Source of the DNA: Serinibacter salmoneus
Lineage (GTDB): Bacteria > Actinomycetota > Actinomycetes > Actinomycetales > Beutenbergiaceae
Length of the DNA: 64,000 nucleotides
Assembly (NCBI RefSeq): GCF_002563925.1
Contig: NZ_PDJD01000001.1
Location: 1,866,973 to 1,930,972 of the forward strand
Direction: 5' to 3'
Made by a program: the position numbers and the translations under genes. The notes beneath the pieces were generated by a model. It was given only the letters and a program-made list of their open reading frames with translations. It made no database searches and had not been told where the DNA came from. Positions 11,229 through 59,735 of the stretch are shown one piece after another. Numbering within the stretch: position 1 is the stretch's first letter; each line of letters begins with the position of its first letter.

Positions 11229-11285
11229 GCCGCCCGCCCGGCGCGCCACCCCCGCGCAACCACCCGCTCGGTGCCCCATACCCCG

Positions 11286-11351
11286 CTCGCCGAGCGATGG
11301 GTTACGCAGCATTTCCACGCGCCACCCCTGCACAACCCCACGCTCGGCGAA
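11286..11351 (+). repeat. 66-nt inverted-end repeat, copy 1
   Basis: Starts with CTCGCCGAGCG and ends in CGCTCGGCGA plus one mismatch, giving near-perfect 11-bp terminal inverted repeats around a conserved core (GATGGGTTACGCAGCATTTCC, positions 11295 onward). Too short to encode anything; REP/MITE-like. Confidence 0.75.
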
Positions 11352-11358
11352 CCACCCA

Positions 11359-11424
11359 CTCGCCGAGCGATGGGTTACGCAGCATTTCCGCGCGCCACCC
11401 CTGCACAACCACACGCTCGGCGTG
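11359..11424 (+). repeat. 66-nt inverted-end repeat, copy 2
   Basis: Same element, 73 bp downstream of copy 1 in the same orientation; the right end reads CGCTCGGCGTG, differing from the ideal at one position. The core is nearly identical to copy 1 (one A to G change near the centre). Confidence 0.75.
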
Positions 11425-35606: not shown

Positions 35607-36110
35607 ATGCCGACACGCGAGCAGGAGTACGTCGAGTCCGTCCTGACCCACGTGCGGGAGGGCCTCTCCCGCGCCCACCTCGACCTCTCCCAGAGCGCCG
35701 AGCAGACGGCGAACGCGATGGTCGCTGCCCTCCCGACTCACCATGCCTACGACGAGTTGATCGGTCCGTTCCTCAGCTCGCAAGGTGCCCGCACGCTGCT
35801 CGGACTCGAGAGCCGCCAGGCCCTGCAGCACCGGGTTGACGTGGGCAGCGTGCTGCGAGCCCGCACCGACGACGGCATCAACGTCTACCCCGCGTTCCAG
35901 TTCGACGGCGGGCGAGTGCATCCGGCGCTCCTGCCCGTCCTGGGCGCGCTTCGCGATATCGACGGCTGGACGGCTGCCCTCTGGCTTTGCCTCCCCAACG
36001 ATGAACTCGACGGGCTGGAACCGCGGACCTGGCTGCTCGACCCCGAGCGCGACGGCGAACGGGTGGTCGGCCTCGCTCGGGAGGCTGCCGCCTCGTGGAC
36101 CCGGAGATGA
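35607..36110 (+). CDS. Xre/MbcA/ParS-type antitoxin
   Basis: 167 aa. The C-terminal half fits the antitoxin toxin-binding (DUF2384/MbcA-ParS) domain: YPAFQFDGGRVHPALLPVLG, followed by WTAALWLCLPNDELDGLEPRTWLLDPERDGERVV. The N-terminal half is helical and probably DNA-binding. Overlaps the RES-domain gene by 4 bp (ATGA), the classical antitoxin-first order. Confidence 0.85.
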   Translation: MPTREQEYVESVLTHVREGLSRAHLDLSQSAEQTANAMVAALPTHHAYDELIGPFLSSQGARTLLGLESRQALQHRVDVGSVLRARTDDGINVYPAFQFDGGRVHPALLPVLGALRDIDGWTAALWLCLPNDELDGLEPRTWLLDPERDGERVVGLAREAAASWTRR

Positions 36111-36730
36111 TTAGAGCGCGAGTAGCGCAGCGACTCCCCACCGGCGACGTGATGGGGTTCCCGCACGTCCGCGTTCCGCATGGCGCGATGTGGTTCCGCG
36201 AGCACGGGCCGCTGGGGCCTTGGTGGTTCGCCTCCGGCACAGGAGGGCGATTCAACCTCGACGAGCCTCGCGGGAGCCTCTACCTCGCGTCCAGCGCAGA
36301 GGCCGCGGCGCGGGAACGTATCGGCGGCCCGCTTGCCCAGGCGGGTGTCGTCCCCGCCACGCTCGTCGAGGACCGGGCGGTCTCCGCTATCGCGCTCGAT
36401 GCCTCGGTCGAGGCGGCGGACCTGACGGCTCGGGACGCCCTGCGCCACGGCGTCGTGTGTCACGAGCTGTGCACGATGACCCCGTACGACGTGCCGCGGG
36501 CGTGGGCGGCCGCCTTCGACGCCGCAGGCTTCGGCGGGATCGTCGGGACGATCCGGTTCTCTCCTCCGACCGAACGCGCACTGACCGTGTTCGGCGGCGC
36601 AGGGGCACGGGATTGGGAGATGCCGGCCGACGCCGTAGCCCTACGCGCTGTGCTGGAGGGACTCGACGTCAGGGTCATCGAGCCGCCGTCCTCGCGGTCG
36701 TTGACGTTCGTGGATCCGCCCGGGCTCTGA
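36107..36730 (+). CDS. RES-domain toxin (NAD+ phosphorylase type)
   Basis: 207 aa from ATG 36107 in the antitoxin stop; an in-frame GTG at 36095 would add four residues. RES-domain features: a conserved Arg/Trp region WWFASGTGGRFNLDEPRGSLYLASS, then the Glu of SSAEAAARERIG, and later VCHELCTMTPYDVPRAWAAAF. Characterised members (MbcT, Res) degrade NAD+ and cause growth arrest unless bound by the MbcA/Xre antitoxin. Length is typical. Confidence 0.85.
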   Translation: MIRARVAQRLPTGDVMGFPHVRVPHGAMWFREHGPLGPWWFASGTGGRFNLDEPRGSLYLASSAEAAARERIGGPLAQAGVVPATLVEDRAVSAIALDASVEAADLTARDALRHGVVCHELCTMTPYDVPRAWAAAFDAAGFGGIVGTIRFSPPTERALTVFGGAGARDWEMPADAVALRAVLEGLDVRVIEPPSSRSLTFVDPPGL

Positions 36731-38588: not shown

Positions 38589-39248
38589 GTGCAGCACCAT
38601 GGTCCGCAGAGCGCAGACGACACCGGCAGCCCGGGAGACTCGAGCACCGAGCGCTCTGCCTTCTCCCTCCGGCTCGCGCGAGCCACCCTAGGCCTCCTCG
38701 CGCTGGCGGCCTCGCTGCAGGCGCTCGGCAGCCTCTGGTGTCTGGCGACCGGCCGGTTCCTCTTTGCGCTCGGCGGAGCCGAGCCACGCCTGGACTACCT
38801 CGACCTCCCGCAGGTCCTGCGGGCCCAGTCACGAGACGGTGAGGTCGCCTACCTCGTGGACCTGGACTTCTGGGTCCGCCTGGTCGGGTACACACCGGCG
38901 GTGCTCACCGGAGTCGTGATGGCACTCGGAGCTGCCTGGGGAGTCGCGGTGCTAGGCACCATCGGCCGCGGGCGACCGTTCGACCCCGCGGTACTCCGTG
39001 GAATGCGTCGCATCGGGTTCGTGCTGAGCCTCGGCGGTGTTGTCGCTGGCGCCCTCGACGTCGCGGCGAACTGGATGCTCGCCAACCAGCTCGACGACCT
39101 CTTCACCCACGGCCCGTACGAGGGCCTGGTCTACGACGGAGGTTCCTGGCCCGTGGCCGTGATCGTCATCGGCGTCGTCGTCCTCGCCACGGGTGCAGCG
39201 TTTCGCGAGGGCGCCCGCATGACCGAGGAACTCACCCATGTCGTCTGA
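38589..39248 (+). CDS. DUF2975 membrane protein
   Basis: 219 aa, GTG start. Four hydrophobic segments, with the typical IGRGRPFDPAVLRGMRRIG region between helices 2 and 3. DUF2975 proteins are nearly always paired with a small YozG-like HTH protein, as here, with an 11-bp overlap. Function unknown in the family; transport, sensing or antitoxin-like roles are all open. Confidence 0.85.
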   Translation: MQHHGPQSADDTGSPGDSSTERSAFSLRLARATLGLLALAASLQALGSLWCLATGRFLFALGGAEPRLDYLDLPQVLRAQSRDGEVAYLVDLDFWVRLVGYTPAVLTGVVMALGAAWGVAVLGTIGRGRPFDPAVLRGMRRIGFVLSLGGVVAGALDVAANWMLANQLDDLFTHGPYEGLVYDGGSWPVAVIVIGVVVLATGAAFREGARMTEELTHVV

Positions 39249-39486
39249 CGACGACGGGGTGCACGGACACATCGAGTGCCGCCTCGGTGCGTTGCTCGCC
39301 GAGCGCGACATGACGATGACCGAGCTCTCCCGTCGAACCGGCATCACGATGGCGAACCTGTCGATCCTCAAGAACAACCACGCCAAGGCCGTGCGCATGC
39401 ACACGCTCGTGCTGATATGCGAGGCGCTCAAGGTGACGCCGGGCGAGATCCTGGTGCTGAAACCAGGCGCACAGGCTGACCAGTAG
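39238..39486 (+). CDS. YozG-like XRE-family HTH regulator
   Basis: 82 aa, ATG 39238. Compact Cro/CI helix-turn-helix: LGALLAERDMTMTELSRRTGITMANLSILKNN. Overlaps the DUF2975 gene, and probably binds the inverted repeat at 38541-38569 to autoregulate the pair. Confidence 0.88.
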   Translation: MSSDDDGVHGHIECRLGALLAERDMTMTELSRRTGITMANLSILKNNHAKAVRMHTLVLICEALKVTPGEILVLKPGAQADQ

Positions 39487-39982: not shown

Positions 39983-40005
39983 GGATCGAGCCTACGACGC
40001 ACCCT

Positions 40006-40088
40006 GCAGAACCACCTCGCGGTACCCGCAGAACCACCTCGCGATACCTGCAGAACCACCTCGCGGTGCCTGCAGAACTGCCTCGCGG
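40006..40088 (+). repeat. 22-bp tandem repeats (3.8 copies)
   Basis: Units starting at 40006, 40028, 40050 and 40072, consensus GCAGAACCACCTCGCGRTRCCY. They lie between the divergent lipoprotein start and the 3' end of the peroxidase-like gene. No spacers, so this is not a CRISPR array. Confidence 0.85.
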
Positions 40089-40097
40089 AGGTGGGGG

Positions 40098-40724
40098 TCA
40101 GGGGACAGAGGGGACGGAGGGCTCGCCGAGGGAGAGCATGAGGCGGTTGGCCCAGGAGAAGAACCCTGCGGAGGAGATCAGGTCCACGAGGGCGGCGTCA
40201 TCCAGGCCCACCTCGCGCAGCTCCGCCACGTGCTCGGGACCGAACGCGATCGGGGTGCGGGTGAGCGCCTCCGCGGCCCGCACGATCGCCGACCACCGCG
40301 CCGAGAGCGAACCCTCGAGCAGCGCGGTGTGCACGCCCTGCGCGAGCAGCGCGTCCACCTCCTCGGGCCGGTGGCCCAGGGTGGCGGCGAACCGCGCGTG
40401 GACGCTGGCGCAGAACACGCACCCATTGGTCCGCGAGGTGGCCGTGGCCGCCAGTTCCCGCTCGGCGCGCGGCAGCCCGGAGCCGTCCCGCGCGCCGGTG
40501 TGGAAGATGTCCAGGTCCGCGCGGGTGCGGGCCTCGAGAACGGCCGGGTCCAGGGCGAGGAGGCGGAAGTAGGGGTTCTCGGCCCGCTTCGGCTCCACGA
40601 GCCCGGCGATCTGCTCGGGCGTCAGGTCCTGCGCGCGCGGTGGCTCGAGCCACGCCAGCCAGTCCAGCTGCTCGCGGGTGAAGTGCTCCGGCGGCGTCAC
40701 CCGCGCGGTGGTCGTCGTGCTCAT
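40098..40724 (-). CDS. AhpD-like protein (peroxidase-related, Avi_7169-type)
   Basis: 208 aa from ATG 40724 in the ATGA overlap. AhpD/carboxymuconolactone-decarboxylase fold with redox-active Cys102-X2-Cys105 and His109 (GCVFCASVH). Matches the alkylhydroperoxidase-domain subfamily that co-occurs with a KPN_01858-type luciferase-like monooxygenase and a peptide-type ABC transporter (recalled as TIGR04030). Likely handles a peroxide or thiol intermediate from the monooxygenase. Last gene of the seven-gene operon. Confidence 0.82.
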   Translation of the reverse strand: MSTTTTARVTPPEHFTREQLDWLAWLEPPRAQDLTPEQIAGLVEPKRAENPYFRLLALDPAVLEARTRADLDIFHTGARDGSGLPRAERELAATATSRTNGCVFCASVHARFAATLGHRPEEVDALLAQGVHTALLEGSLSARWSAIVRAAEALTRTPIAFGPEHVAELREVGLDDAALVDLISSAGFFSWANRLMLSLGEPSVPSVP

Positions 40725-41419
40725 GTGTGCGTCTCCTTCGAGGAGGTCTCCTGCAGGACGGTGAGCCCGGCGACGATCCGCACCTGGTAGGTCAGGAACG
40801 ACACGAGCTGGGAGAGGGTGACGATCGCGGTGGTGTCCCATCCGGCGCCGGTCAGGCGCGCGAGGTCCGCGGGTGCGGCCTCCCGCGGTCGCAGCACGAG
40901 CAGCGCGGCATGGTCGATCGCCGCCGCCAGCGGCGCGCCGAGTTGCTCGGTCAGCCCGGCGTCCTGGCTGCGGAAGACCTCCCCCGGCTCGTTCTCGCCC
41001 TGGAGCCCGACCTCGGCGTACACACCGTAGGGGCCCGGCCGGCTCGCGGCGGCGACGGCGGCCTCCACCGCGGCGATCAGGTCGCCGTCCGCGGCCGCGA
41101 GCGCCTCGCGGTGCGCGGCGGCGAGGGGCTCCCCCGCCGTGCCGTGCAGGCCGAGCACGAACAGGGCGACGGCGTGGCGCACCCGAGCGCTCACCGAACC
41201 CTTCTCGTCGCCCGAGTGCTCGCCCGAGGGCTGCGGCGCGAAGAGCGCCTCGTGGGCCGCCTGGCTCTGCTCGCGCGCCGTGGCCCGGCCGCGGCGCACC
41301 GCGTCCAGGGCGTCGCCGGCGCGGATCCCGACCGCCGCATCGATCACATCGGCCTCGGTCACATCCACATCGGTCACTTCCACACCACTCACCTCAGTCT
41401 CACTCACCTCGGCGCTCAT
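40721..41419 (-). CDS. CMD-domain protein (Avi_7170-type)
   Basis: 232 aa from ATG 41419. CMD/AhpD-like helical protein; unlike its neighbour it lacks a CxxC motif, the equivalent region being AAIDHAALLVLRPREA. The N-terminal ~30 residues are a Val/Asp/Glu low-complexity stretch (VSGVEVTDVDVTEADV). Subfamily recalled as TIGR04029. Possibly a non-redox partner of the CxxC protein. Overlaps both neighbours by 4 bp. Confidence 0.8.
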   Translation of the reverse strand: MSAEVSETEVSGVEVTDVDVTEADVIDAAVGIRAGDALDAVRRGRATAREQSQAAHEALFAPQPSGEHSGDEKGSVSARVRHAVALFVLGLHGTAGEPLAAAHREALAAADGDLIAAVEAAVAAASRPGPYGVYAEVGLQGENEPGEVFRSQDAGLTEQLGAPLAAAIDHAALLVLRPREAAPADLARLTGAGWDTTAIVTLSQLVSFLTYQVRIVAGLTVLQETSSKETHT

Positions 41420-42492
41420 GCCGTCACCTCCTCGAGTGCGCGCTCCTGCGACGCCGCCGAGCCAACAGCAGGAACCGAACTAGCACCCTCGGCAAGCGCG
41501 ATCCCGAGCTCCGGCGCCACCTGCGTGGCCAGCAGCTCCAGGGACCGCAGGGTCAGGTCGTGCACGGGGTCGACCGAGTGCACCTGCACCAGCAGGTCGG
41601 TGGCGTGCGTCAGCACGGTGTCGCGGCGCAGCTCCTCGACCACGCGCTCCGGGGTACCGACGACCGTGTCCGATCGGCGCACCAGCTCCTCCACGGAGCC
41701 CTGCGGGTCCAGGCCCCACAGGCCGCCGGCGCGCGCCACGGCGCGCAGGCCGCGGTCGGCCTCCCGGCGCCAGACGTCCTCGGAATCGGCCACGAACACG
41801 CTGCGCGAGGCCGCGATGCGCGGCTCCACCCCGCCCGGCAGGGCGTCGAGGTAGGCGTCCACGACTTCCTCCTGGATCTCCCAGATCCTCAGGTCCGGCT
41901 GCCCCTCCGGGCGCGGCTGGCTGCGCGACAGCATGAGGCCGTGTCCGGCGGCGCCGATGCGGGCGGCGCCGGCGGCGGAGAAGGTGGCCTCCCACACCCG
42001 GCCGCTCAGCGTCGGCGCCTGCGGGTAGAGCTGGTTCTCCTCGGTCCCCAGGTCCCCGCCGCCCCAGGCATCGAGCACCTCCGCGAGGGCGTGGGCGTAG
42101 ATCGCGCGGCGGTCGGCGGACTCCTTGCCGAAGGCGAGGAAGGAGGACGGCGTGCCCCCGGTCCCGAAGCCCGGCTCCACCCGGCCGCCGGAGAGCTCAT
42201 CCAGCACGGCGAGGTCCTCGGCCACGCGCAGCGGCTGCTCCAGCGGGAGGGTGATGATGCCGGTGGCGAGGCGGATCCGGGAGGTCTGCGCGGCGATCCA
42301 GCCCAGGAGCACGGCGGGTGAGGGCAGCCCGCCCTCGGCGGCGTGGAAGTGGTGCTGCGCGACCCAGGCGGAGTGCAGGCCGAGCTGCTCGGCGCGCACC
42401 ACGAGGTCGCCGGCGTTGCGGTAGCGCTGGGCGGGTGAGGTCTCGTCCAGCAGCCGGGTGAAGACGCCGAGGCGGAGGTGGTCGGTGGTCAT
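41416..42492 (-). CDS. FMN-dependent luciferase-like monooxygenase (KPN_01858-type)
   Basis: 358 aa TIM-barrel luciferase-like enzyme (RLGVFTRLLDE start; AWVAQHHFHAAEGGLPSP; LATGIITLPLEQPLRVAEDLAVLDELSGGRVEPGFG). Such enzymes use FMNH2 and O2 to oxidise and often cleave C-S or C-N bonds. In an operon with an ABC importer and two AhpD-like proteins it is likely the first catabolic step on an imported compound. Subfamily recalled as TIGR04027. Flavin is probably supplied by a reductase encoded elsewhere, as none is in this operon. Confidence 0.85.
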   Translation of the reverse strand: MTTDHLRLGVFTRLLDETSPAQRYRNAGDLVVRAEQLGLHSAWVAQHHFHAAEGGLPSPAVLLGWIAAQTSRIRLATGIITLPLEQPLRVAEDLAVLDELSGGRVEPGFGTGGTPSSFLAFGKESADRRAIYAHALAEVLDAWGGGDLGTEENQLYPQAPTLSGRVWEATFSAAGAARIGAAGHGLMLSRSQPRPEGQPDLRIWEIQEEVVDAYLDALPGGVEPRIAASRSVFVADSEDVWRREADRGLRAVARAGGLWGLDPQGSVEELVRRSDTVVGTPERVVEELRRDTVLTHATDLLVQVHSVDPVHDLTLRSLELLATQVAPELGIALAEGASSVPAVGSAASQERALEEVTA

Positions 42493-44138
42493 GCGTTACT
42501 CCTCGCAGGGACGGAAGCAGGGACGGAAGCGGTGACGGTAGCGCTGGGCAGCGCGGCGCCGGGGATGGCGGCGATGAGGTCGCGGGTGTAGTCCTCGCGC
42601 GGGGTCTCGAAGATCTCCCGCACGCTCCCGGCCTCCACCGCGTGACCACCGCGCAGCACGGTGATGGTGTCGGCGATCTGCCGCACGACCGCGAGGTCGT
42701 GGGAGATCACCAGGTAGGTGGTGTCCAGGTCGTTCTGCAGGTCGGCGAGCAGCCGCAGGATCCCGGCCTGCACGGTGACGTCCAGGGCGCTGGTGGCCTC
42801 GTCCAGGATCAGCAGGTCGGGGTCGAGCACCAGGGCCCGCGCGATGGCGGCCCGCTGCCGCTGCCCGCCGGAGAGCTCCCGGGGGCGCCGGGCGTGCAGC
42901 GCGGGGTCGAGCGCCACCCGCTCGAGCACCTCGGCTGCCCGACGGCGTTGCTCGGCCGGGGTGCCGAGGGAGAAGTTGCGCAGGGGTTCCGTCACGGCCT
43001 GCAGCACCGTGTGCCGTGGATCCAGCGACCGGTCGGGGTTCTGGTAGACCAGCTGCACGCTGCGGCGCAGCTCCCGTCGCCCGGCAGAACCGAGGCTGGC
43101 GACCTCGCGGCCCAGCAATTGCACGGAGCCGCTGGTGATCGACTGGAAGGCGGCGACGGCGCGGGCCGTGGTGGTCTTCCCCGACCCGGACTCCCCCACG
43201 ATCGCGTGCGTGGTGCCCTGGGGGATGTCGAAGCTCACGCCGTCGACGGCGGTGAAGGCGTGCCGGCGGCGCCCGAAGGTGACGGTGAGGTCCCGCACCC
43301 GCAGCGCCGACCCGGCCTCAGCCACCCGCGGCTTCCGGGTGATCGGCGTGGCGAGCGTGGGGGCGTCGGCCAGCAGTCGCCGGGTGTAGGGCGCGGAAGG
43401 GTCGCGCAGCACCGCATCCGCCGGTCCGCTCTCCTGCACGCGGCCCTCGCGCAGCACCACCACGCGGTCGGCGTGGTCGGCGGCGAGCGCGAGGTCGTGG
43501 GTGACCAGCAGGATCCCGGTGCCGGTGCTGCGGCGCAGCTCGTCCAGCAGGTCCAGGACCCGGCGCTGTACCGTGACGTCCAGGGCGCTGGTGGGCTCAT
43601 CGGCCACGATCACGCTGGGGTCCAGGGCGATCGCGCCGGCGATGAGCACGCGCTGACGCATCCCGCCGGAGAGCTCGTGCGGGTACTGCCGGGCGCGGCG
43701 GCGCGGGTCGTCGATCCCCACCCGCTCCAGCAGGTCCACCACCCGCTCGGCCAGCACCCGGCGGGGTGCGGCGCGGTGGATGCGGAAGGCCGCGGCGATG
43801 GAGTCCCCGATCCGGGTGGTGGGGTCCAGGGAGGCTCCCGGGTCCTGCGGCACCAGCGCGATGCGCCGCCCGCGGGCACACCGCCAGGTGGCGGCCGAGG
43901 CGTCGGTGAGGTCCTCACCCGCCACCGCGATGCGCCCGCTCAGCACCCGACCGGTGGTGGGCAGCAGGTTCAGGGCGGCCTGCGCCGTCGTGCTCTTGCC
44001 GGATCCGGACTCCCCCACCAGGGCGACCAGTTCGCCCGGCGCCACCGAGACGGAGACGGCGTGGGTGACCTGGTGGACGCCCTCGGGGGTGTCGTAGCCG
44101 ACGGAGAGGTCGCGCAGGTCCAGGGCGGGGGCGGTCAT
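42489..44138 (-). CDS. Fused double ATPase of peptide/nickel-type ABC importer
   Basis: 549 aa from ATG 44138: two complete DppD/DppF-like ATPase domains in one chain. NBD1 has GESGSGKSTTA, LSGGMRQRVLIA and VADEPTSALD; NBD2 has GESGSGKTTTA, LSGGQRQRAAIA and LILDEATSALD. It energises the two permeases encoded just upstream. 4-bp overlaps on both sides. Confidence 0.95.
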   Translation of the reverse strand: MTAPALDLRDLSVGYDTPEGVHQVTHAVSVSVAPGELVALVGESGSGKSTTAQAALNLLPTTGRVLSGRIAVAGEDLTDASAATWRCARGRRIALVPQDPGASLDPTTRIGDSIAAAFRIHRAAPRRVLAERVVDLLERVGIDDPRRRARQYPHELSGGMRQRVLIAGAIALDPSVIVADEPTSALDVTVQRRVLDLLDELRRSTGTGILLVTHDLALAADHADRVVVLREGRVQESGPADAVLRDPSAPYTRRLLADAPTLATPITRKPRVAEAGSALRVRDLTVTFGRRRHAFTAVDGVSFDIPQGTTHAIVGESGSGKTTTARAVAAFQSITSGSVQLLGREVASLGSAGRRELRRSVQLVYQNPDRSLDPRHTVLQAVTEPLRNFSLGTPAEQRRRAAEVLERVALDPALHARRPRELSGGQRQRAAIARALVLDPDLLILDEATSALDVTVQAGILRLLADLQNDLDTTYLVISHDLAVVRQIADTITVLRGGHAVEAGSVREIFETPREDYTRDLIAAIPGAALPSATVTASVPASVPARSNA

Positions 44139-45040
44139 CGGGCACCTCGGATCAGGGAGGAGAGGCGGTTGGCGGAGAGCACCACGGCCACGACCACGAG
44201 GCCGGGCAGGGTGGTCAGCCACCAGGAGGTCGCGAGGTGGCCGCGGCCCTCGGAGATCAGCAGCCCCCACTCCGGGGTGGGCGGCGGGGCGCCGTAGCCG
44301 AGGAACCCGAGGGTGGAGATCGCGAGGATCGCGGTGCCGAACTGCAGCGCGGCGAGCGCCAGCACGGGGGTGAGGGAGTTGGGCAGCACGTGCCGCCACA
44401 GCACCGCCAGGGTGCGCCCGCCGCTGCCGAACGCGGCCTCCACGTATTCCAGACGTCGCACCCGCACCACCTCGGAGCGCGAGAGGCGGGCGAAGGCCGC
44501 CACGGCCGTGACGCCCACCGCGATCGCGGCGTTGGTGGTGCCGAAGCCGAGCAGGATGATCACCGAGAGGCTCAGCAGCAGCCCGGGGATGGACAGCAGC
44601 ACGTCGGTGACGCGCATGAGGATCTCGTCCACCAGGCGGCCCAGGGAGCCGGCGGCCACGCCGATCGCGGTGCCAGCCACGAGGCCCACGGTCACCGCGA
44701 CCACGCCCCCGGTCAGGGAGTAGCGGGCGCCGTAGACCACCCGGGTGAACAGGTCGCGCCCGGTGGGGTCGGTGCCGAACCAGTGCGCCGCGCTCGGCGG
44801 TTGCAGCGCCTCGCTGGGTTCGCCCACGTAGGGGTCGGCTGTGGTGAACAGGGCGGGGGCCAGGGCCCACGCGAGCACGAGCAGGAGCACCGCGGCGGAC
44901 AGGATCACGCCGGGGGTCAGGCCCCGTGCCCGACGGCGCAGCGTGCGCCGGGGGCGCGGCGCGCCCGGGTCGGTGGCCGGCTCGGGCGCGGGGGTCTCCT
45001 GCAGCGTGCGGCGCTGCAGTTCGCTGATCTCGAGAGTCAT
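44135..45040 (-). CDS. ABC permease, DppC-like
   Basis: 301 aa from ATG 45040 (GGAGG about 8 nt upstream). Long cytoplasmic N-terminus, about six helices and the EAA-type loop EYVEAAFGSGGRTLAVLWRHVLPNSL. Contains the family segment HWFGTDPTGRDLFTRVVYGARYSL. Second permease of the importer; overlaps the ATPase gene by 4 bp. Confidence 0.94.
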   Translation of the reverse strand: MTLEISELQRRTLQETPAPEPATDPGAPRPRRTLRRRARGLTPGVILSAAVLLLVLAWALAPALFTTADPYVGEPSEALQPPSAAHWFGTDPTGRDLFTRVVYGARYSLTGGVVAVTVGLVAGTAIGVAAGSLGRLVDEILMRVTDVLLSIPGLLLSLSVIILLGFGTTNAAIAVGVTAVAAFARLSRSEVVRVRRLEYVEAAFGSGGRTLAVLWRHVLPNSLTPVLALAALQFGTAILAISTLGFLGYGAPPPTPEWGLLISEGRGHLATSWWLTTLPGLVVVAVVLSANRLSSLIRGAR

Positions 45041-45059
45041 GTCGGTCCTCCGGCGGCAA

Positions 45060-46001
45060 TCACGCGGCAACCCGGCGGCGCAGCCGGGGGTCGATGGCGG
45101 GGGCCAGCAGGTCGACCACCAGGTTCACCACCACGAACGCGGCGGCGGCGACCACCACGATCGCCATGAGCACGGGGGTGTCCTGGGTGGCGAGGGCATC
45201 GGCGGTGAGGCGGCCGATGCCGAAGCGGGCGAAGACGGTCTCGGTGACCACCGCTCCCCCGATGAGTTCGCCGAGCAGCACCCCGGCGATGGTGAGGGCG
45301 GGCAGGGCGGCGTTGCGCAGGATCGCGTGGATCAGCACCCAGCCCTGCCCGGCGCCCTTGGAGCGCACGACGGCGACGAACGGCTGTGCGGCGACATCGT
45401 CCATGGCCCGCACCAGTACCTGCGCGATCGGGGCGCTGATCGGGATGGCGAGGGTGAGCACCGGCAGGATCAGTGCCTCCACGGGGCCGGGGCGGATCAC
45501 CGAGATCCACCCGAGCCGGAAGGAGAACACCTGGATGAGCACGATGCCGAGCCAGAAGACCGGCACGGAGACGAACAGGGAGGGCAGGCCGCGTAGGAAA
45601 CCCGCGAGGCGGCCCGAGGGGCTGAGGATCGCGCCGAAGGCGAGCAGCGAGGCGAGGATCAGCGCCGCGAGGAAGCCCAGCCCCGCGAGCAGGAAGGTGG
45701 AGGGCAGCGCGGCCCCGAGCAGCGTGGTGATCGCGGCACCGGAGGCCACGGAGTACCCGAAGTCACCGCGCAGCGCCGCCGTCAGCGTGCTCCAGTACTG
45801 CTGCAGCAGCGGTGTCTCGGTGCCGTAGGCGGCCCGGACCTCGGCGATCTGCGCCTCGGTGAGCCCGAGCTCGGGGTCCTCGAAGCGGATCATCACGGCG
45901 TCCCCGGGCAGGGCCTGCAGCATCAGGAACGCGACGGTGAAGGCGGCGAGGAGCACGCCGGCCGCGGTGGCGATGCGGCCGGCGAGGTAGCCCCACTCCA
46001 C
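45060..46001 (-). CDS. ABC permease, DppB-like
   Basis: 313 aa with six helices and the DppB pattern: N-terminal helix, LPGDAVMIRFEDPELG, later AQPFVAVVRSKGAGQGWVLIHAILRNAALP (EAA loop) and GGAVVTETVFARFGIGRL. First permease of the importer; the next base after the stop of the binding-protein gene begins this gene's start region (ATG 46001, directly abutting). Confidence 0.94.
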   Translation of the reverse strand: MEWGYLAGRIATAAGVLLAAFTVAFLMLQALPGDAVMIRFEDPELGLTEAQIAEVRAAYGTETPLLQQYWSTLTAALRGDFGYSVASGAAITTLLGAALPSTFLLAGLGFLAALILASLLAFGAILSPSGRLAGFLRGLPSLFVSVPVFWLGIVLIQVFSFRLGWISVIRPGPVEALILPVLTLAIPISAPIAQVLVRAMDDVAAQPFVAVVRSKGAGQGWVLIHAILRNAALPALTIAGVLLGELIGGAVVTETVFARFGIGRLTADALATQDTPVLMAIVVVAAAAFVVVNLVVDLLAPAIDPRLRRRVAA

Positions 46002-47648
46002 TTAGTTCTCCAGCCAGGTGTCGTAGAAGACCGGGCGGGCGATGGAGTCCCAACCGAAGCCCTGCACGTAGGGCTGGGCGCCGTAGACCTGCGGCTCCTC
46101 GAACAGTGGCACCACGTAGGCCTGCTCGACCAGGTAGCGCTGCGCCTCCTCGGTGGCCGCCAGTCGCTCCTCCTCATCCGCGGTGGAGGCCACGGCGTCC
46201 AGCAGCGCGTCCAGTTCCGCGTCCTGCGACAGCAGCGCGTCGCGGTTGGCGGAGTGGAACTGGCTCTTGATGACGTCCAGGTCGGTGCGCCCCACCATCG
46301 AGTGGTAGGCCTGCACCTGGTCGGCGTCCAGGATCGCCTCGGCGTAGGTGCCGGAGTCGGCGGCGAGGATCTGCAGGTCCACGCCGATCTCGGCGAGCTG
46401 CTGGGAGATCAGGGTGAGGGTGTCGCGCGACAGCGGCTGCGGGGCGGCCTCGTTGACCACGAGCTCCAGGCGCTGACCGTCCTTCACGCGGATCCCGTCG
46501 TCACCGGGCTCCCACCCCGCGCCGTCCAGCAGCTCGGCGGCCGCCTCGGGGTCGTAGGCCAGGTCGTCGGAGAGGTCCACGTAGCCGAGCGCGGTGCTGG
46601 AGAGCACGCCGGTGGCGGCCGGGTAGTTCTCGGTGAACACGGTGTCCACCACCTCCTGCGCATCCACACCCGCCACGATGGCGCGGCGCACGTCGATGTC
46701 GGAGAGGATCTCGTTGCTCGGCCGCAGCGAGAGGCTGTTGTTCACGCCCTGGGTCTGCGGGGCGAACAGCTGCAGCCCGGCGGCCTCCACCTGCTCCTCG
46801 TCGTAGGCCTGCACGTAGCGGATCACGTCGGCCTGCCCGGAGGTCAGGGCACCGACGCGCACGCTGTCCTCCGGGGTGACCACGAGCCGCACGCCGTCGA
46901 GGTAGGCCCGGCCCTGGTGCTCGGACTCCTGCGGCGCCCAGTCGTAGTCCTCCCGGGCCTCCAGCAGGATCTCGGTGCCGACCGTCTCCTCGGCGATCAC
47001 GAACGGACCGGAGCCGATGACCTCGGTGGCGTTCCCGGGGGCGAAGAAGTCGGCGTCGCCCTCGAGGGTCTCCGGGGAGAGCAGCCCGGCGCCGTTGGCG
47101 CTCGTGGCCTGCAGGAACCCGGGAGAGGGGGCGGAGAAGGTGAAGGTGACCTGCTCGCCGTCGACCTGCGATCCCACGTAGTTGTTGATCTGCTCGGAGA
47201 CGGGGAAGCCCTTGGCGGCGTCCCCGAGGCCGTAGGCGTCGATGTTCGCGGCCACCGCCTCGGCGTCCAGCGGGGTGCCGTCGGAGAAGGTGACGCCCTC
47301 GCGGATGGTGAAGGTGTAGGACGTGGCGTCCTCGTTCACCTCCCACGCGCTGGCCACCCAGGGCGAGAACTCCAGGGTCTCGGGGTCCTGGTAGACGAGG
47401 CGGTCGGTGATGTTCGCGATGAGCGCGCCGTTGGGGTAGAAGCCCGACTGCGGCGGGTAGAGCGTGGTGTAGGGCTGGTACTCCAGGTACAGCAGCTCCC
47501 CGCCGGTCCGGGCATCGCCGGCCGCCTCGGCGCTCGCGGCGCCGTCGGAGGAGGCGCCAGCGTCGCTGCCACCACAGGCCGCGAGCAGGGCGGTCGCGGC
47601 CACGGCGGCTGCGGTGGTGATCAGTGCTCGGGGGGTTCGGCGTGTCAT
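46002..47648 (-). CDS. Substrate-binding lipoprotein (family 5, KPN_01854-type)
   Basis: 548 aa from ATG 47648 (AAGGAG 7 nt upstream). Lipobox LLAAC (Cys25), then a family 5 solute-binding fold: ITDRLVYQDPETLEFSPWVASAWE, YTFTIREGVTFSDGTPLDAEAVAANI, DVRRAIVAGVD. Distinct from ordinary peptide-binding proteins and recalled as the TIGR04028 subfamily tied to the luciferase-like enzyme. First gene of the operon, so the promoter lies within 47649-47754. Confidence 0.88.
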   Translation of the reverse strand: MTRRTPRALITTAAAVAATALLAACGGSDAGASSDGAASAEAAGDARTGGELLYLEYQPYTTLYPPQSGFYPNGALIANITDRLVYQDPETLEFSPWVASAWEVNEDATSYTFTIREGVTFSDGTPLDAEAVAANIDAYGLGDAAKGFPVSEQINNYVGSQVDGEQVTFTFSAPSPGFLQATSANGAGLLSPETLEGDADFFAPGNATEVIGSGPFVIAEETVGTEILLEAREDYDWAPQESEHQGRAYLDGVRLVVTPEDSVRVGALTSGQADVIRYVQAYDEEQVEAAGLQLFAPQTQGVNNSLSLRPSNEILSDIDVRRAIVAGVDAQEVVDTVFTENYPAATGVLSSTALGYVDLSDDLAYDPEAAAELLDGAGWEPGDDGIRVKDGQRLELVVNEAAPQPLSRDTLTLISQQLAEIGVDLQILAADSGTYAEAILDADQVQAYHSMVGRTDLDVIKSQFHSANRDALLSQDAELDALLDAVASTADEEERLAATEEAQRYLVEQAYVVPLFEEPQVYGAQPYVQGFGWDSIARPVFYDTWLEN

Positions 47649-47754
47649 CAAGGGGCTCCTTGCCGTCTCGTGTGGTGACGACCCGACGGTAGGTCGGTTG
47701 TCACTTCACTTGCTGAGACAACTGAAAACGCCCACATCGTGGACAACGCGCGAG

Positions 47755-47787
47755 GAGGGCCGCCGTCGGTCTCCGACGGCGGCCCTC
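47755..47787 (-). terminator. Terminator after MMPL gene
   Basis: 15-bp perfect stem (GAGGGCCGCCGTCGG at 47755-47769, loop TCT, complement at 47773-47787). It lies 67 bp past the MMPL stop on the minus strand and separates it from the importer operon. Confidence 0.8.
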
Positions 47788-47800
47788 GATCGCCCTGCTC

Positions 47801-47848
47801 GTGGCCACGCGGCCTCGTGGCCACGCGGCCTCGCGGCCACGCGGCCGC
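47801..47848. repeat. Three tandem 16-bp repeats
   Basis: GTGGCCACGCGGCCTC at 47801-47816 and 47817-47832, and a diverged third unit (GCGGCCACGCGGCCGC) at 47833-47848. They sit between the MMPL stop codon and its terminator, and contain self-complementary GGCCACGCGGCC stretches. Confidence 0.75.
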
Positions 47849-53367: not shown

Positions 53368-54216
53368 ATGAGATACGGATTCGTGGGATCCTTCGGCACC
53401 GTCGCCGAGCAGGTGGCGCTCGCGCGCGAGGTGGAGGCCGCGGGCTGGGACGGCTACTTCACGTGGGACGCCATCTCCCTGGGCACCGATGCCACCTGGG
53501 ACCCGTTCGCGCTGCTGGGCGCGGTGGCCGCGAGTACCGAGCGCATCACGCTCGGGGCGCTGGTCTTCGCCGTCCCTCGCCGCAGCCCCTGGGAACTGGC
53601 GCGCCAGGCACTGACGGTGGATCACCTCTCCGGCGGCCGCCTGGTGCTGCCCATGGGCGTGGGCGTGACCGAGGACCGCGCGGTCGCCGGCGTGAGCGGT
53701 CGGGGCGCCACGCCGCACGGCCTGCGTGAGCGCGCCGCCCTCCTGGACGAGACCCTGGCGATCCTCGACGCCGCCGCCGGCGGCGAGCCGTTCAGCCATG
53801 CCGGGGAGCACTACCAGGTGCAGGACATGTTGATCGCGCCGCGACCGGTGGCCCGGCCCCGGGTGCCGATCTGGCCGGTCGGGGTGTGGCCGGCGCCGAA
53901 GTCGATGGCGCGCGCCGCCCGCTGGGACGGGATCGTGGTGCAGTTGCGGGGCGAGCGGGCCATGGAGGAGCCCACGCCCGACGACGTGGCGGCCCTGGTC
54001 GCGCACCTCACCGAGGTGCGGGGCGGCCCGGAGGCGATGGCCGGGTTCGAGGTGGTGCTGCAGGGGCAGTTCGCCGAGCAGCCCGATGCCGCGGAGCGGG
54101 CCGCCGCCTACGAGGCGGCGGGCGCCACCTGGTGGATCGACGGCCGCTGGCAGGGGCCGGACGCCCAGCCGGATCGGCAGCGTGCGCTGGTGGCGTCCGG
54201 GCCGCCGCGAACGTAG
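53368..54216 (+). CDS. Luciferase-like (LLM class) oxidoreductase
   Basis: 282 aa from ATG 53368 (MRYGFVGSFGTVAEQVALA); an in-frame ATG at 53338 is less family-like. TIM barrel with LGALVFAVPRRSPWELARQALTVDHLSGGRLVLPMGVG; probably F420- or FMN-dependent. Not closely similar to the luciferase-like protein at 41416-42492. Convergent with the acyltransferase gene. Confidence 0.86.
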   Translation: MRYGFVGSFGTVAEQVALAREVEAAGWDGYFTWDAISLGTDATWDPFALLGAVAASTERITLGALVFAVPRRSPWELARQALTVDHLSGGRLVLPMGVGVTEDRAVAGVSGRGATPHGLRERAALLDETLAILDAAAGGEPFSHAGEHYQVQDMLIAPRPVARPRVPIWPVGVWPAPKSMARAARWDGIVVQLRGERAMEEPTPDDVAALVAHLTEVRGGPEAMAGFEVVLQGQFAEQPDAAERAAAYEAAGATWWIDGRWQGPDAQPDRQRALVASGPPRT

Positions 54217-59432: not shown

Positions 59433-59452
59433 GGTCGGCACCACCCGCGAAC

Positions 59453-59536
59453 CCCTGGCACCACCCGCGAGCGTCGTCGATACGCGCGAGATGGTCCGCC
59501 GGGCGTCGTCTCTCGCGCGCTTCGTCGTCTCTCGTG
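59453..59536 (+). repeat. 84-bp direct repeat, copy 1
   Basis: Identical by eye to 59606-59689, offset 153 bp. Rich in CGTCGTC and CTCGCGCG runs; contains TACGCGCGAGATGG. Flanked by shorter partial repeats of GGCACCACCCGCGAGC. Confidence 0.85.
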
Positions 59537-59605
59537 TGCGGGGGCGCGGCCCTCGCGCGTGCGCGAGCCCAGGCACCACCCGCTAGCCCCCGCACCACCC
59601 GCGAG

Positions 59606-59689
59606 CCCTGGCACCACCCGCGAGCGTCGTCGATACGCGCGAGATGGTCCGCCGGGCGTCGTCTCTCGCGCGCTTCGTCGTCTCTCGTG
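59606..59689 (+). repeat. 84-bp direct repeat, copy 2
   Basis: Second copy. Exact identity over 84 bp suggests recent duplication or gene-conversion-like maintenance. Function unknown. Confidence 0.85.
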
Positions 59690-59735
59690 CGTGAGGGGGC
59701 GGCCCGCGCGTGTGGGGGCGCACCCCGGAAATGAC

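Follow-up and report, generated by a model that had tools for sequence, protein, structure and literature searches.

A seven-gene operon of the TIGR04027–TIGR04030 families in Serinibacter salmoneus as a probable sulfur-starvation scavenging module

Several luciferase-family enzymes, such as SsuD, SfnG, DmoA and CmoJ, cleave carbon-sulfur bonds, and organosulfur scavenging by an importer combined with a luciferase-family oxygenase is already known. In the CmoO/CmoJ pathway, flavin-dependent C-S cleavage yields a sulfenate, which requires reduction (PMC10863075). Here we describe an operon encoding an ABC importer, a luciferase-like monooxygenase (LLM) and two AhpD-like proteins in a 64,000-nucleotide stretch of the Serinibacter salmoneus genome (contig NZ_PDJD01000001.1; the whole stretch is called the window below), which is part of a complete 3.27-Mb actinobacterial genome. 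A literature search turned up no publication that deals with the operon. Its role is very probably the scavenging of sulfur, and its best explanation as a whole is that of a scavenging module induced by sulfur starvation, which we consider probable. The novelty lies in assigning the TIGR04027–TIGR04030 gene set, together with VOC and M20 partners, to sulfur-starvation metabolism.

The operon comprises seven consecutive minus-strand open reading frames (ORFs), from 47648 to 40098 in the ORF analysis of the window. The genes, in the order of transcription, are the following:

46002..47648, minus strand: family-5 substrate-binding lipoprotein (SBP; TIGR04028, SBP_KPN_01854), with an ATG start and the lipobox LLAAC
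45060..46001, minus strand: Opp/Dpp-type permease B, with a GTG start; Opp2B-like (227.9 bits, below cut-off), assigned with the help of synteny
44135..45070, minus strand: Opp/Dpp-type permease C, with a TTG start at 45070 or an alternative ATG at 45040; Opp2C-like (233.7 bits, below cut-off), assigned with the help of synteny
42489..44138, minus strand: fused double ATPase, DppD-DppF/GsiA-like, with two ABC stretches resembling YejF/GsiA; the true start is the ATG at 44138
41416..42492, minus strand: FMN-dependent LLM of TIGR04027, assigned by family score and the solved relative PDB 8K74
40721..41419, minus strand: CMD protein (TIGR04029), a predicted diverged AhpD fold without CxxC, assigned by family score and model
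40098..40724, minus strand: AhpD-like protein (TIGR04030) with CxxCxxxH, assigned by family score and motif

The SBP stop abuts the permease B start with a 0-bp gap, between the two permease genes there is either an 11-bp overlap (TTG start) or a 19-bp gap (ATG start), and 4-bp overlaps are found at permease C-ATPase, ATPase-LLM, LLM-CMD and CMD-AhpD. The sequence-only reading, which had described a seven-gene operon with 4-bp overlaps at most junctions, was borne out, as all seven genes are on the minus strand and four of the six junctions are of this type. Longer ORFs at the ATPase and AhpD genes (the latter from 40841) are over-extensions of frames starting at 44138 and 40724.

Proteins of sulfur starvation were reported to be poor in cysteine and methionine (PMC7661421), and the content of cysteine plus internal methionine was analyzed following this suggestion. 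The background consisted of 146 genes from 14 stretches of 20 kb of the same genome, called by a simple ORF caller with a GC3 filter. The counts were 2 in 548 residues for the SBP (0.37%), 2 in 549 for the ATPase (0.36%), 1 in 358 for the LLM (0.28%), 0 in 232 for the CMD protein, 3 in 208 for the AhpD protein, 4 in 313 for permease B, and 1 for permease C. Pooled, the seven proteins contain 0.52% Cys and Met, compared to 2.26% in the sampled genes (median 2.13%); five of the seven are lower than every one of the 146 genes, and the lowest of 62 sampled seven-gene runs has 1.33% (Mann-Whitney p=3.7e-5). Other family-5 binding proteins of this genome, as given by the ORFs at those places, contain about 1.1 to 3.6%, while its SsuA-family gene (0.56%) and its Glyoxalase_3 VOC gene (0.45%) are also low. 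Median values in relatives of the operon proteins are equally low: 0.0 for CMD, 0.19% for SBP, 0.38% for ATPase and 0.63% for LLM. The operon shows the Cys/Met depletion of genes induced by sulfur starvation.

Conserved lineage-specific elements were found upstream of the operon in relatives. Matrices were built from operon promoters alone, with sites picked by eye from aligned promoters and several thresholds printed, and were scanned over the surroundings of SsuA, SfnB and DmoA family genes in the genomes concerned, with further stretches from these genomes as controls; in these statistics the genomes within one lineage are related, and none is from the genus of the window. The Streptosporangiales element (naaTTgCCTACtATtTAGGTAGGTTATnnTGG, at least 15 bits) matched 17 times in 150 kb, in 13 of the 17 regions, but not once in 360 kb of controls (0 of 18; p=9e-10). 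For the Rhizobiaceae element (at least 18 bits) there were 12 matches in 172 kb, spread over 10 of 20 regions, and two in 398 kb of controls (1 of 20; p=2.7e-5), the only matching control region being a stretch that continues a sulfur island. At a distance of at most 400 bp, the elements precede 8 of 31 ssuA/sfnB/dmoA-type genes in Streptosporangiales and 7 of 21 in Rhizobiaceae, 15 in all. Moreover, in one Nonomuraea genome the strongest copy of the element (49.8 bits), equal to that of the operon itself, precedes a VOC gene on another contig (L158:2186; 1389-2090). Microvirga operon promoters (L034, L038, L041, L047 and others) have a common GTTCTAAAAAAAGAAC palindrome.

The genes around the operon in relatives point in the same direction. 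Six of 35 genomes (0.40 expected) have a DmoA/NtaA-family LLM gene no more than 15 kb away from the operon, namely Paenarthrobacter, Serratia, Enterobacter and three Agromyces, whose genomes contain no other such gene; counted as four independent lineages, this gives p of about 8e-4. A VOC (Glyoxalase_3) gene is found at a distance of at most 5 kb in 11 of 36 genomes (0.07 expected). Both neighbor counts assume independence, which is violated by related genomes. In Paenarthrobacter, the DmoA-family LLM gene and a rhodanese gene are directly upstream of the operon. Annotated plasmid loci have, near the operon, TauABC, LLM and acyl-CoA-dehydrogenase-family genes (Allorhizobium), SsuABC and TauABC (Rhizobium tumorigenes), a sulfonate ABC importer and a DmoA-family LLM (Rhizobium NXC24), a CysB-type regulator (Variovorax), or, in Pantoea dispersa, a divergent back-to-back cluster for an MsnO8 LLM, an amidohydrolase, an LLM, an amino-acid SBP and a GNAT protein; the gene types of this cluster resemble those of the Bacillus S-alkylcysteine salvage operon (compare PMC10863075). 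An M20 amidohydrolase gene follows the AhpD gene in Pantoea agglomerans and Enterobacter, and the VOC and M20 proteins look like further members of the pathway. Among 130 ORFs flanking one locus per genus, few families other than VOC, DmoA-type LLM and ABC parts were recurrent, and therefore the neighbor argument rests on the targeted counts. The depletion, the promoter elements in common with ssu/sfn/dmoA-type genes in two lineages of relatives, and the neighbors together give good support to organosulfur scavenging, which the sequence-only reading had offered with a "perhaps".

In the window genome itself no DmoA-family LLM was found, and no VOC gene stands beside the operon, the PF13468 (Glyoxalase_3) gene of this genome being about 128 kb away. 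The latter (G000:C1:1780315-1780854) adjoins unrelated competence genes. In Nonomuraea sp. NEAU-A123, a diverged TIGR04027 paralogue (G328:C12:822829-823803; 226 bits, under cut-off) adjoins SfnB-like and DmoA-family genes and is perhaps a sister subfamily in sulfur metabolism.

Several observations weigh against a role in sulfur scavenging. The promoter evidence comes from lineages other than that of the window. The window promoter has a 13-mer, GTTGTNNCAGCAA, in common with the operon promoter of Miniimonas arenae, but it occurs once in each of these two genomes and nowhere else in either, so that no regulon could be built; a comparison of short words (10-mers) with the region upstream of the genome's own ssuA gave only GC-rich noise. 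The Enterobacterales element (aGcgcAATTCCTTnGTTCacc) was no more frequent near sulfur genes than elsewhere, with 5 matches in 134 kb compared to 11 in 287 kb. Thus, the comparison with sulfur regulons, which had been suggested along with the sequence-only reading, was positive for Streptosporangiales and Rhizobiaceae and negative for Enterobacterales, and it gave no shared element in the window genome. The loci of Paracoccus, Sinorhizobium americanum and Klebsiella lack obvious sulfur neighbors. Finally, the in vitro activity published for a relative of the LLM, on poly(acrylic acid) (PAA; PMC11354265), does not involve sulfur.

The region upstream of the operon in the window has the following features:

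47652..47730, minus strand: operon promoter region, with the inverted repeat TCGGTTGTC/GACAACTGA at 47694-47702/47717-47725
47755..47787, no strand assigned: perfect 15-bp hairpin in the stretch that separates the operon promoter from the upstream MMPL transporter gene

This intergenic stretch also contains self-complementary repeats of 16 bp, at 47798-47846.

Families were assigned by comparing NCBIfam profile scores with curated cut-offs. The SBP scored 744.5 bits against TIGR04028 (cut-off 468.5), the LLM 453.8 bits against TIGR04027 (412.9), the CMD protein 142.7 bits against TIGR04029 (100.75), and the AhpD protein 250.8 bits against TIGR04030 (233.15); all four subfamilies named in the sequence-only reading were confirmed. 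By all the criteria applied (scores and gene order) the operon is a member of the TIGR04027–TIGR04030 gene set. By score it is not a member of the CmoO, CmoJ/DmoA, NikA, CntA or GsiB families: the LLM reached 92.8 bits against the MsnO8/CmoO-type TIGR03558 (cut-off 166.95) and 28.1 bits against the NtaA/DmoA-type TIGR03860, the class of CmoJ and DmoA (279.7), while the SBP reached 143 bits against NikA (393), 93.8 against CntA (800), and 71.6 against the glutathione importer GsiB (594). The AhpD protein carries the CxxCxxxH motif as CVFCASVH, which is present in 85 of the 85 relatives checked, and the CMD protein contains no cysteine, as expected from the earlier description of two AhpD-like proteins, one with CxxC and one without. 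No Pfam matches were obtained for the CMD protein. The sole confident structural neighbors of its AlphaFold model (pLDDT 86.5) belong to the AhpD family, the likeness being distant (best E 5e-3, TM about 0.54-0.60 by target length), and a diverged AhpD fold lacking CxxC is predicted.

According to its model (pLDDT 81.5), the SBP would be just a normal family-5 binding protein, with the nearest solved folds among NikA/NikZ/GsiB(YliB)/AppA-type proteins (Z 33-36). The operon could accordingly be read as an importer of a metallophore or of nickel or opines with modification enzymes attached: NikA is the best characterized NCBIfam match of the SBP after TIGR04028, NikA, NikZ and CntA are among its closest solved folds, an FhuE gene adjoins the operon in Pantoea, and in the Klebsiella proteome KPN_01858 was raised under iron limitation, together with TauC (PMC7194016). 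However, the scores are far under the NikA and CntA cut-offs, the fold is common to all family-5 proteins, no recurrent metallophore synthase was found among the neighbors, and the promoter elements match sulfur genes, which makes an importer of this kind very unlikely. The rise of KPN_01858 together with TauC speaks at the same time for the sulfur reading.

Most of the 90 loci compared, which represent about 30 genera of Actinomycetota and Alpha-, Beta- and Gammaproteobacteria and one Rokubacteria metagenome-assembled genome, have the gene order SBP-permease-permease-ATPase-LLM-CMD-AhpD; therefore, the arrangement is not due to chance. The Opp/Dpp-type architecture of the transporter might suggest general uptake of peptides or oligopeptides, with enzymes unrelated to the imported solute, but the enzymes and the transporter occur together in about 30 genera, their genes are joined by translational overlaps in the window, and TIGR04028 is a distinct subfamily; hence, we give this explanation hardly any credence. 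The LLM-CMD-AhpD trio is found without an adjacent TIGR04028 importer in Variovorax and Bosea, and so it looks like a catalytic unit. The closest relative of the window LLM is that of Miniimonas arenae (74%). In a phylum-wide draw of 296 genomes, a close match was present in only three, including the window genome itself, and was above cut-off in one; hence, the operon is patchy in Actinomycetota. In Nonomuraea typhae, the whole operon region occurs in two identical copies on different contigs (L043 and L046).

The profile of the LLM matches PDB 8K74 (PCX02514 of Klebsiella sp. PCX), a full-length TIGR04027 relative (596 bits). The 2024 paper on this structure claimed an NADPH-dependent loss of PAA mass with kcat of 0.002 per s, whereas FMNH2 gave no activity, in contrast to other luciferase-family enzymes; the gene had been chosen since luciferase acts on a long chain, and the operon was not mentioned (PMC11354265). 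The claim would allow the monooxygenase to oxidize carbon chains, PAA or its fragments, with the importer bringing in oligomers as a carbon source. The low turnover, the need for NADPH with no activity on FMNH2, and the selection of the gene by analogy all argue against this, and the Cys/Met depletion and the common promoter elements would be left unexplained, so that a carbon-source role is highly improbable. We treat the paper as a structure with a weak activity claim; the only published substrate of the monooxygenase, a synthetic polymer, is probably not the physiological one. The earlier statement that no substrate is assigned has to be corrected on one point, as PAA cleavage has been claimed for this relative.

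The order of import, flavin-dependent cleavage, and handling of a peroxide or thiol product, proposed from sequence alone, fits the families. The lipoprotein would capture a small organosulfur solute, which the Opp/Dpp-type permeases and the double ATPase would bring into the cell, the direction of transport being predicted from the type of the importer. The LLM, with FMNH2 and O2, would then oxidize the compound and split the C-S bond; such oxidative cleavage, deduced from the flavin chemistry of the family, is reasonably likely. The CxxC-containing AhpD and its cysteine-free partner may reduce the sulfenate or thiol product, a step needed in the CmoJ pathway. The operon of many relatives additionally includes a VOC (Glyoxalase_3) gene, and that of some an M20 amidohydrolase gene. 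We tentatively propose, at less than even confidence, that an organosulfur-cleaving LLM cannot do without the AhpD pair as its catalytic partner (joined by VOC and sometimes by M20), the pair handling the sulfur intermediate; to our knowledge, such a role has not been described for the AhpD family. Alternatively, the pair may only remove peroxide leaked by the flavin enzyme, a variant compatible with sulfur scavenging. It agrees with CxxCxxxH being the AhpD redox motif and with the strong induction of the 1-Cys peroxiredoxin LsfA and of Ohr by sulfur starvation in Pseudomonas (PMC12581299). On the other hand, almost all complete loci retain the cysteine-free CMD protein, and in Enterobacterales it forms a single protein with AhpD, which suggests a specific role in substrate conversion; we regard mere peroxide protection as rather unlikely. 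In Miniimonas arenae, CMD and AhpD are apparently also one 472-aa frame (L021:11026-12441), the two being separate genes in the window. As to the substrate of the scavenging module, an anionic thioether, e.g., an N-acyl- or gamma-glutamyl-S-substituted cysteine, would agree with an importer of the peptide type, with the M20 hydrolase and the adjoining Pantoea cluster, and with the arginines conserved in the LLM; we consider this first guess doubtful.

Other features were observed in the window. Four 22-bp tandem repeats (ACCCGCAGAACCACCTCGCGGT) are located at 40001-40088, immediately downstream of the AhpD stop. A gene for a RES-domain protein (PF08808) at 36095-36730 overlaps an upstream ORF without a family match (35607-36110), possibly forming a toxin-antitoxin-like pair. 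Within 38589-39486, the gene of a DUF2975 membrane protein precedes that of a small regulator of the Cro/C1 type (HTH_26), which overlaps the end of the former. At about 53500-53808 there is another, unrelated luciferase-family stretch (38.7 bits to TIGR04027), and tandem arrays with 73-bp and 153-bp units occur at 11242-11422 and 59438-59714.

Four curated families that had no assigned function can now be attributed, along with a VOC partner, to sulfur-starvation metabolism in two major phyla; if this is true, a sulfur-scavenging pathway is spread over Actinomycetota and Proteobacteria. The substrate question is narrowed to testing growth on, and binding of, a panel of organosulfur compounds, and the regulators of sulfur genes in Streptosporangiales and Rhizobiaceae can be approached through the two lineage-specific promoter elements.

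Compared with PCX02514, whose claimed substrate is a polymer, the window LLM has invariant R13, R128, S189 and R190 as the counterparts of Arg10, Arg125, Ser186 and Arg187 (matched by motif), whereas His253 of the published enzyme is not conserved in the window or Nonomuraea LLM. With the gene set of the NCBIfam families (KPN_01854-01858 of Klebsiella and Avi_7169/7170 of Allorhizobium; hypoth_equivalog models, no function assigned there), the operon has in common four markers over cut-off and the gene order, and differs from Enterobacterales, and apparently from Miniimonas, in having separate CMD and AhpD genes. The CmoO/CmoJ (Ytm) system for S-alkylcysteine salvage of Bacillus subtilis is similar in the combination of an importer and a luciferase-family monooxygenase, with C-S cleavage and a thiol product as predicted here; it has a Tcy-type amino-acid importer and two monooxygenases, whereas an Opp-type importer, one LLM and AhpD proteins are encoded in the window. 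The Ssu/Sfn/Dmo systems for sulfonates, sulfones and sulfides differ in their SsuA/NMT1-type importers, in other LLM subfamilies and in having no AhpD pair, but resemble the operon in the luciferase-family enzyme, in the ABC importer (for Ssu), and in the promoter element common to both in two lineages.

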